Shown here one piece after another: positions 56,680 through 58,472 of a DNA stretch of 64,000 bases. Origin of the DNA: Thermophilibacter immobilis. Lineage in GTDB: Bacteria > Actinomycetota > Coriobacteriia > Coriobacteriales > Atopobiaceae. The notes beneath the pieces are model-generated. The model worked only from the letters and a program-made list of their open reading frames with translations. It made no database searches and was not told the DNA's origin. Location of the stretch: assembly GCF_015277515.1 (NCBI RefSeq), contig NZ_CP063767.1, positions 1,426,001 through 1,490,000 of the forward strand, given 5' to 3'. The position numbers and the translations under genes are program-made. Numbering within the stretch: position 1 is the first letter of the stretch; each line of letters begins with the position of its first letter.

Positions 56680-56982
56680 TCATCCAGACAGATGTGAGTA
56701 ATAACCTGACGTTCGAAGTATGCTCTCGTAGCCGCCCTGGCCGATGTGGCAGCTCGCGAACTCACAAAACTGTGTGGTGGTGCTGAGGTGGCACTGTTGC
56801 GCCATCGCCGAGACCATGCCGCTGCTGAGCTCTTTCTTGCCCCCATGGCTGACCCTTGTGCGGATGCTGGTGCGCCTCCCATCAGGCGTTTCGTAGCAAA
56901 GATACTTGTGGTCCCCGTCCCTGCAGACGAAGCCCTTCTTCTTGAGGTTCTTGAGGATCATCGTGCTTGACAGGCTCGGCAC
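56680..56982 (-). CDS. HicA-like small protein, possible toxin
   Basis: 100 aa. MILKNLKKKGFVCRDGDHKY, TRVSHGGKKELSSGMVSAMA and FCEFASCHIGQGGYESIL fit the pattern of a HicA-like group: a lysine-rich first helix with KKGF, a GDH-Y strand, an SHG(x)K motif with His, then a helix with M-QQCHLS. HicA proteins are dsRBD-fold mRNA interferases. The GTG at 56980-56982 lies two bases after the upstream gene's TAG and gives the family start; an ATG nine codons later is the alternative. Ribosome site is poor, so translation is probably coupled. GC is lower than flanks. Confidence 0.7.
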   Translation of the reverse strand: MPSLSSTMILKNLKKKGFVCRDGDHKYLCYETPDGRRTSIRTRVSHGGKKELSSGMVSAMAQQCHLSTTTQFCEFASCHIGQGGYESILRTSGYYSHLSG

Positions 56983-56984
56983 GG

Positions 56985-58058
56985 CTACGCCCCGACCAAG
57001 CCGAGGAGGTTCCTGCGGGCGGCAACGGCGTCCTCGGCGAGCGTTTCCTCCGGGGCGTTGACGATGTAGGACCAGCGCCATGCGAGGTCGTCGAGGACCT
57101 CCTGGCGGATCTCGTCCTGGTGCTCCGCGAAGACCACCATGCCCAACGGCTCGCACTCGGCGATGAAGACCTGGCCCGCGTCCTCGTCGAGCCCGACCTC
57201 TATCGAGAGAGGCTCCTTGAGCCTAATCGTCTCCCCGCCGGCCTCGAACTCGCTGACCACGACGACGCGAAGGTCCAGCTCCTCTATCCCGCTGGCGTCC
57301 TTGACGTCATCGATGTCCCCGTTGATGTCGTACCTGTAGCGGCAGTTCACCGTCATGGGCCTAAGCCGGTTAGAGACAAGCCGGTCCTCAATATCGGGAT
57401 CGTAATCGACCCAGAACTTCTTCTTGCCATTGGTCGGTCTGAGGCCTATCTTCTCCGCCTCGAAGTCCACGCCCACGACCCTGGCGATGATGGAGCCGTC
57501 GATGTACTCACCGGTGGCCAGGCGCATGCTGGCGAAGTCGATCAGGTCGGCACGCTTAAGCTCGGTTCTCTCGGAGCCGTCCTCCCCGACCGCAACCGAG
57601 ATCCTCTCGTTCCCCCTTGGCAGTATATTCTCGACTTCCTTGACTGCCTGGTCCCGGGCGCACCTACTGGGAATCTGGGCTGCGAGCGCTTCGGCCTCCC
57701 CATTGGAGACCGACTCTATGAGGCTGAGAGCTGGCTCGAACCCGCCCCCGGCGAAAGAGAGCCTGGCCTGGGGCTCGTCCGACTCGTCGTACAGGAGCGC
57801 CTCGGCGCAGTAGCACCCCTTTGCGGCCGGTGCCAGGTAGATGGCATGAGTCGTCTTCCCCTCAGACGGTTTGGGCCGAGAGGCACGCTTGTCGTCGGGA
57901 TCATATGACTTCTCGTCGGAGACAATGTTAAGTAACGTGTCATACCCATCCAGCATCTCCTTGAGCCTCTTGAACGAGATCTCGTCCCCGATCCCATCCG
58001 TGGAGACGTGGATGGACATCCTGTCAATGAGCCGGCGTTCTCTCGGTGAATCGCCCAT
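56985..58058 (-). CDS. Protein of unknown function paired with the HicA-like gene
   Basis: 357 aa, not recognised. N-terminal MSIHVSTDGIGDEISFKRLKE and a middle made of short beta strands (about 150-290, e.g. SIIARVVGVDFEAEKIGLRP, KKKFWVDYDPDIEDRL). A C-terminal helix reads EVLDDLAWRWSYIVNAPEET. No membrane segment, signal peptide, or nuclease motif is seen. ATG at 58056-58058 follows GGGAGGTG. It precedes the HicA-like gene with a two-base gap, so the pair is one operon; it may be the antitoxin or a larger partner. Codon use and GC differ from alaS and the transporter on either side, which suggests acquisition. Confidence 0.75.
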   Translation of the reverse strand: MGDSPRERRLIDRMSIHVSTDGIGDEISFKRLKEMLDGYDTLLNIVSDEKSYDPDDKRASRPKPSEGKTTHAIYLAPAAKGCYCAEALLYDESDEPQARLSFAGGGFEPALSLIESVSNGEAEALAAQIPSRCARDQAVKEVENILPRGNERISVAVGEDGSERTELKRADLIDFASMRLATGEYIDGSIIARVVGVDFEAEKIGLRPTNGKKKFWVDYDPDIEDRLVSNRLRPMTVNCRYRYDINGDIDDVKDASGIEELDLRVVVVSEFEAGGETIRLKEPLSIEVGLDEDAGQVFIAECEPLGMVVFAEHQDEIRQEVLDDLAWRWSYIVNAPEETLAEDAVAARRNLLGLVGA

Positions 58059-58132
58059 CTTTGGCACCTCCCCCCATCAGGTGGCTACGAATATAGGCCA
58101 CTTGCGTCCACACATGGCATTGCGGCACGAAA

Positions 58133-58165
58133 ATGCCCCTCCCCGCACGAGGCGAGGAGGGGCAT
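58133..58165. terminator. Hairpin with short T tails on both strands
   Basis: ATGCCCCTCC (58133-58142) pairs with GGAGGGGCAT (58156-58165), 13-base loop, then CTTT rightward and TTTT leftward. It can end leftward transcription from the transporter before the two-gene unit. Confidence 0.7.
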
Positions 58166-58472
58166 CTTTGCGTGCATGTGCATTGTGCCCCGGATTTCTG
58201 GCCCCGGGGCTAGCCGTCGCCGATTCTCCGACCTCCGCGTATAGCCGATGTGCTGGACGACATCCACCACGAGTTAGCAAGCGAACACAGGCTGGTGGCC
58301 ATTGTAGCACGCCTTGGCCCTCCTCCGCGCATGCCCGCGCGATCCCCACCCGCCCGCCACAGGCCGCGCGGGCGGCAGCCTCGCGCGCGGCTCGTCCGCC
58401 AGCGCCGTCAGTTGTAGAACCCCTCGCGCCTCAGGTACTCCTGCAAGGCCAGGACGGTGTAGCGCGCCGCAG
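58166..58472. other. Gap between the terminator and the transporter
   Basis: No gene is supported. On the minus strand, 58410-58470 reads like a short C-terminal peptide (RYTVLALQEYLRREGFYN then stop) but has no start or ribosome site; it may be a worn gene end. Confidence 0.35.

Follow-up and report, generated by a model that had tools for sequence, protein, structure and literature searches.

A two-gene unit between alaS and a transporter gene

Within the window, by which we mean the whole 64,000-nucleotide stretch of Thermophilibacter immobilis DNA that was analysed, we found a large gene followed by a co-directional small gene, with a stop-to-start gap of two bases. The pair is flanked by genes that we take to be alaS (start 56384) and an AI-2E-type transporter gene (end 58473), both names coming from recognition of the sequence and not from a family search. 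The features of the locus are as follows.

58130..58168, minus strand: stable hairpin lying before the pair, perhaps where the transporter transcript ends
58067..58075, minus strand: ribosome-binding stretch GGGGGGAGG, read from the sequence, 8 nt before the ATG of the large gene
56985..58058, minus strand: large gene, ATG start, 357 aa; probable Class 8-type HicB antitoxin with three regions
57276..57509, minus strand: predicted central OB-fold region of the large protein, residues 184–261 (AF2 model, VIA-align and Foldseek)
56997..57263, minus strand: candidate C-terminal HicB-like region of the large protein, residues 266–354 (strand order in the model and a weak profile match)
56680..56982, minus strand: small gene, GTG start, 100 aa; HicA-like, with two extra C-terminal helices in the model

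The gene pair is a real, well-delimited unit. A preliminary description had reported such a unit, encoding a 357-aa protein and a small protein across a two-base gap, between alaS and a transporter gene, and we recovered both frames on the minus strand as well as this setting. The GTG start of the small gene is supported by a related genome (G041), in which the small protein opens with the same residues, MPSL.

The preliminary description also held that the unit differs from its surroundings in base and codon use. The first part stands: GC content is 0.622 in the large gene and 0.574 in the small gene, whereas 41 long, mechanically chosen open reading frames of the window, among which the large gene is the third lowest, have a median of 0.696. 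The second part holds only in part, as the third codon positions of the large gene have an unremarkable GC content (0.83, against a window median of 0.81). A hairpin terminator had been proposed upstream, and there is indeed a highly stable hairpin (−34.7 kcal/mol, z = −6.3, with 0 of 200 shuffles equally stable), but its one T run is four long and paired at the base of the stem. A mechanical terminator scan, which needs five T, listed none in this region. With no separate T tract and nothing from the scan, the hairpin is at most a possible terminator.

The pair is patchily distributed. Of 140 genomes of the bacterial family, 2 contain the large gene, and a class sample that takes in those two has it in 4 of 396. 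By comparison, the transporter gene was present in all 31 genomes of the genus, and alaS adjoined it in each of the 11 relatives examined (of 30), with an estimated gap of 55–917 bp compared with 2,088 bp here. Given its rarity in the family and the short gaps in relatives, the pair looks like an insertion in the host lineage. We also observed that another relative in the genus (L057) has about 900 bp of other sequence between the transporter gene and alaS; the site may acquire inserts repeatedly.

The small protein resembles HicA

The description of the small protein as HicA-like was borne out by sequence models and by predicted structure. The Pfam model HicA_toxin (PF07927) matched residues 10–65 with an E value of 4.2e-5 (24 bits, below the gathering cut-off of 27), and PHROG 353, which is described as ‘toxin’, matched with an E value of 1.6e-4. 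Across the family, HicA_toxin matched 9 of 18 small proteins at E ≤ 1. The AF2 model of the window protein (pLDDT 78) consists of helix–strand–strand–strand–helix, then two helices (residues 69–77 and 82–92). When this model was compared with the PDB using Foldseek, no match reached E ≤ 0.001; the top match was 1whz (E = 0.016), which we take to be a HicA-like structure, and the second was 6g26 (E = 0.34), titled as a HicAB complex. The best VIA-align matches were likewise HicA-type: 1whz (Z = 7.8), 5yrz (Z = 5.3), titled as a toxin–antitoxin complex, and 6g26 (Z = 5.2), with the following match at 3.8. Together with the Pfam and PHROG matches, these structural matches give good support to a predicted HicA fold, although the sequence is divergent, being at most 25% identical to HicA-type structures in the Foldseek matches.

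Aligned with a profile of neighbouring HicA proteins using hhalign, the small protein scored 18.5, compared with at most 16.1 for shuffles and 16.3 for the reversed profile. Searches of PDB sequences with single proteins of the pair returned unrelated weak matches only (best 0.019 and 0.77). When profiles were used against the PDB sequences, neither HicA nor HicB turned up, the best match being an engineered protein (0.002). Among the 18 small proteins scanned with PADLOC, one matched Cas8c (0.0023) and one matched PDC-M10A (0.013); we regard both as chance matches.

Ten residues (K16, G17, T42, S45, M60, A61, Q63, C64, C78 and Y85) are invariant in all 18 aligned small proteins, and the window protein retains all 13 invariant columns of this alignment, which includes its own row. 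All 18 have a histidine between strands 1 and 2, although this candidate residue falls outside its usual alignment column in five rows. At its C-terminal end the window protein differs from the other members, with one inserted residue and an extra tail. We also noted that two of the invariant residues are cysteines (C64 and C78 in the window protein), which lie in and before the C-terminal extension in 18 of 18 proteins.

The large partner has three predicted regions

The large protein had been described as having no recognisable motif, and on its own the window protein indeed matched nothing in Pfam, NCBIfam or PADLOC at E ≤ 1; its one PHROG match was non-significant (E = 0.33). We aligned it with 17 relatives, and for five of these (L015, L022, L024, L025 and L029) we trimmed the start by eye against the alignment. 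Scanned against Pfam, these 18 proteins gave only weak matches by single members (best DUF7946 at 7e-4), and we recognised no HTH or RHH in the large protein.

AF2, run on 15 rows of the alignment, predicted three regions (pLDDT 77, pTM 0.50). The N-terminal region has a mixed fold to which we could give no assignment. The central region (residues 184–261) matched elongation factor P best in VIA-align (Z = 7.4), with many other OB folds behind, and lysyl-tRNA synthetase chains appear among the Foldseek matches of the large protein, none of which reached E ≤ 0.001. The C-terminal region is predicted to form four strands (266–273, 276–290, 298–302 and 307–311), a helix (314–333) and a further helix.

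The Pfam HicB model PF15919 found no match in the window's genome, and the HicB profile that we compared with the large protein was made from PF15919-found genes of the same bacterial family (10 of 20 loci used). With the whole large protein, hhalign aligned the C-terminal region to the sheet and helix of HicB at a score of 19.1, whereas 60 column-shuffled profiles scored at most 16.6; the reversed profile scored 18.6, placed in the N-terminal half, and the program's own figures for the HicB match were a probability of 0.8% and an E value of 0.07. The C-terminal slice by itself scored 17.4, compared with at most 13.4 for 60 shuffles and 9.3 for the reversed profile; the N-terminal and middle slices reached 11.2 and 13.0, respectively. 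The reversed and cross-profile controls weaken the evidence for HicB, and HicB structures are absent from the Foldseek and VIA-align matches shown for the large protein. We regard the HicB-like C-terminal region as a weakly supported lead, one that agrees with the published Class 8 model discussed below.

The large-protein model also resembles two phage proteins in predicted fold, Leptospira phage LE1 Q6NE06 (Foldseek E = 1.3e-7 over 310 columns) and a DUF6575 protein (E = 1.6e-6 over 275 columns), at low identity (8 and 10%), low TM-scores (0.31–0.38) and an rmsd of 8–10.

The two genes occur together across phyla

Scanning species-representative genomes with the small-protein family yielded 23 pattern stretches, of which 13 were confirmed; the counts given here are of confirmed loci. 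The large gene lies directly upstream of the small gene in all 13 (L021 is partly masked). Viral contigs scanned in the same way gave 12 stretches and two confirmed loci, both with the large partner, one of them cut by the contig end. Co-occurrence had been set beforehand as the check on the toxin–antitoxin reading, and the pair survives it: in all 13 genome loci and both viral loci the genes adjoin or overlap, the widest gap being 74 bp (L023). The putative toxin is accompanied by its large partner in every confirmed locus.

Other complete members of the large family are 341–376 aa long, some after start trimming by alignment. Distances among the large proteins correlate with those among the small proteins (r = 0.94; 0 of 2,000 label shuffles as high; n = 14, with several closely related rows), as expected for genes that travel together. 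Left out of the counts or alignments were L021 (masked), L004 (the same protein as L023), L006 (another copy in genome G245) and L013 and L014 (on contigs shared with L028 and L029); the small gene of L003 is truncated by a contig end. More pairs were found in genomes G041, G245 and G253, the last with the protein of L023, and on a Geminocystis plasmid. Pair-bearing records come from several phyla and include Nostoc, Rhizonema, Opitutales, Tritonibacter, Oceaniglobus, Jannaschia, Aestuariivita, Betaproteobacteria, Rugosibacter and Actinomycetota, among others.

When the large protein alone was used as the query, none of 54 pattern stretches in genome contigs and none of 8 in viral contigs was confirmed. 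In 50,697 phage records we found no match to the large protein of the window, the large protein of L019 or the small protein of L007. Among plasmids, the window small protein had no match, and the remaining pair queries matched Geminocystis pGM3709_06 only. Scanning a phylum sample with the small-family alignment picked out 3 of 296 genomes, namely that of the window plus two others whose distant HicA-like genes have different partners. Such distant genes, preceded by shorter partners, lie at L010 (1459–2821) and L011 (336–1770); L010 has an additional preceding gene that is presumably TIGR04255-like.

The pair probably belongs to Class 8 hicBA

In PMC10865869 (Gerdes, mBio 2024), the contexts of HicA are sorted into 14 classes, and its main text describes Class 8 hicBA from sequence and models. 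There, hicB lies ahead of hicA, close to it or overlapping, and no DNA-binding domain is recognisable. HicB has 331–356 codons and three domains: an unassigned N-terminal domain, a lysyl-tRNA synthetase-like domain (aa 175–253) and a HicB fold (aa 255–342). HicA has about 95 aa and an α-β-β-β-α fold with two extra C-terminal helices.

Our fold and profile analysis preceded the comparison with this description. The window pair is likewise a two-gene operon with the large gene upstream, here across two bases. Its large protein, at 357 aa, is marginally above the published range, and its small protein has 100 aa, the same order of helices and strands in the model and the two additional C-terminal helices. 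The OB fold at residues 184–261, with lysyl-tRNA synthetase chains among the Foldseek matches, corresponds to the middle domain, and residues 266–354, with a HicB-like order of strands and helix and a weak profile score, are a candidate for the C-terminal one. The window pair thus agrees with Class 8 within a few residues, apart from the HicB fold, which is weakly supported here. Compared with canonical hicAB (Classes 3 and 4 in the main text of PMC10865869), it has in common the HicA fold and, weakly, a HicB-like region, but its gene order is reversed, its HicB is far larger with no HTH or RHH recognised, and its HicA bears extra helices.

We put the probability that the gene pair is a Class 8-type hicBA toxin–antitoxin operon at about 75%. 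The preliminary description had proposed a new toxin–antitoxin architecture; we rejected this reading because a hicBA class with so large a HicB, Class 8, had already been described in 2024 (PMC10865869), and most likely the window pair is a new member of that class. The interpretation in the preliminary description is, overall, partly supported. Beyond PMC10865869, our literature search found no further description of Class 8 hicBA, and term searches of the main text of that paper found no mention of Coriobacter or Olsenella, two presumed relatives of the host, or of the word cysteine. The window pair would enlarge Class 8 by one member, and the loci reported here would give it a wide taxonomic spread.

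If the pair works as a toxin–antitoxin system, the small protein would be a HicA-type RNA-binding toxin that, when free, cleaves mRNA and so stops translation, and the large protein would be the antitoxin, produced first from a coupled transcript. The HicB-like C-terminal region would be expected to bind HicA. The OB fold and the N-terminal region would be extra parts, probably for nucleic-acid binding or for sensing a trigger such as phage infection. For the pair itself, RNase activity, neutralisation, the trigger and a role in defence are all predictions.

Neighbouring genes and alternative readings

A role in defence is plausible from the neighbouring genes, the viral contigs and the general case made in the main text of PMC10865869. 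We listed neighbours for 18 loci, three of them from one genome, and scanned 10 neighbour proteins picked by eye from 8 loci. PADLOC models matched 8 of the 10, spread over 6 loci: HsdM (L015 and L028), HsdS (L016 and L028), D12 methylases (L020 and L022), an AriAB-like ATPase (L022) and a ZorD/Mrr-like protein (L006). By Pfam, the remaining proteins were a Schlafen AlbA_2 protein and a SocA-like protein. As there was no control set, these neighbours are suggestive only.

Among the large proteins, the PADLOC candidate PDC-M32A, which is of similar length, weakly matched 5 of 10 over their N-terminal and OB parts (best 2.4e-7), whereas it did not match the window large protein, and its companion model PDC-M32B matched none of the 18 small proteins. 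Other PADLOC matches of large proteins were to PDC-M02B (4e-4) and PDC-M63B for L017 and to PDC-M63B for L023 (0.0043). A genome search with PDC-M32A found nothing in the window's own genome, and the controls likewise gave nothing. The PDC-M32A model PDLC04577 found nothing in six pair-bearing genomes, and model PDLC04574 matched in 2 of 190 genomes, on proteins of 169 and 162 aa (L050 and L051) that belong to another gene set; they adjoin genes that we take to be TIGR04255-like and have no HicBA pair beside them. Misses of PDLC04574 in this genome search mean little, because it passed over genome G695, although a direct scan of the L019 protein encoded there gives a match to this model at 2.4e-7.

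These observations bear on the possibility that the pair is dedicated to phage defence rather than an ordinary toxin–antitoxin system, its N-terminal and OB regions detecting infection and releasing HicA in abortive infection. PADLOC-matched neighbours at 6 of the 18 neighbour-listed loci, the PDC-M32A matches and the two loci in viral contigs argue for it. The scanned neighbours were a hand-picked set, however, the window pair itself sits between housekeeping genes, its large protein has no PADLOC match, and the phage records hold no match; we think this reading possible, at somewhat less than even odds. The divergence of the small protein from HicA-type structures, the OB fold of its partner and the displaced histidine in 5 of 18 rows would also suit an RNA-handling complex in which a HicA-like fold without RNase activity acts with an OB-fold protein. 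We consider such a non-toxic pair unlikely, as a histidine is preserved between strands 1 and 2 in every small protein, and the tight pair order and patchy distribution suit a toxin–antitoxin system.

The C-terminal divergence of the window small protein, and the related genome G041, where we could find nothing of the large gene's first ~145 aa, could instead point to a decaying relic in the window's genome. Both window frames are full length, a good ribosome-binding stretch precedes the large gene and the small protein keeps every invariant column (in an alignment that includes it), which makes decay improbable. Returning to the Class 8 toxin–antitoxin reading, we offer one further idea as a long shot: the N-terminal and OB part of Class 8 HicB may be an infection sensor whose fold is held in common with LE1 Q6NE06, DUF6575-type phage proteins and PDC-M32A, phages may bear such proteins as substitute antitoxins or triggers, and the invariant cysteine pair may provide redox or metal control. 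The N-terminal region of the large protein and the two invariant cysteines of the putative toxin are the handles for tests.
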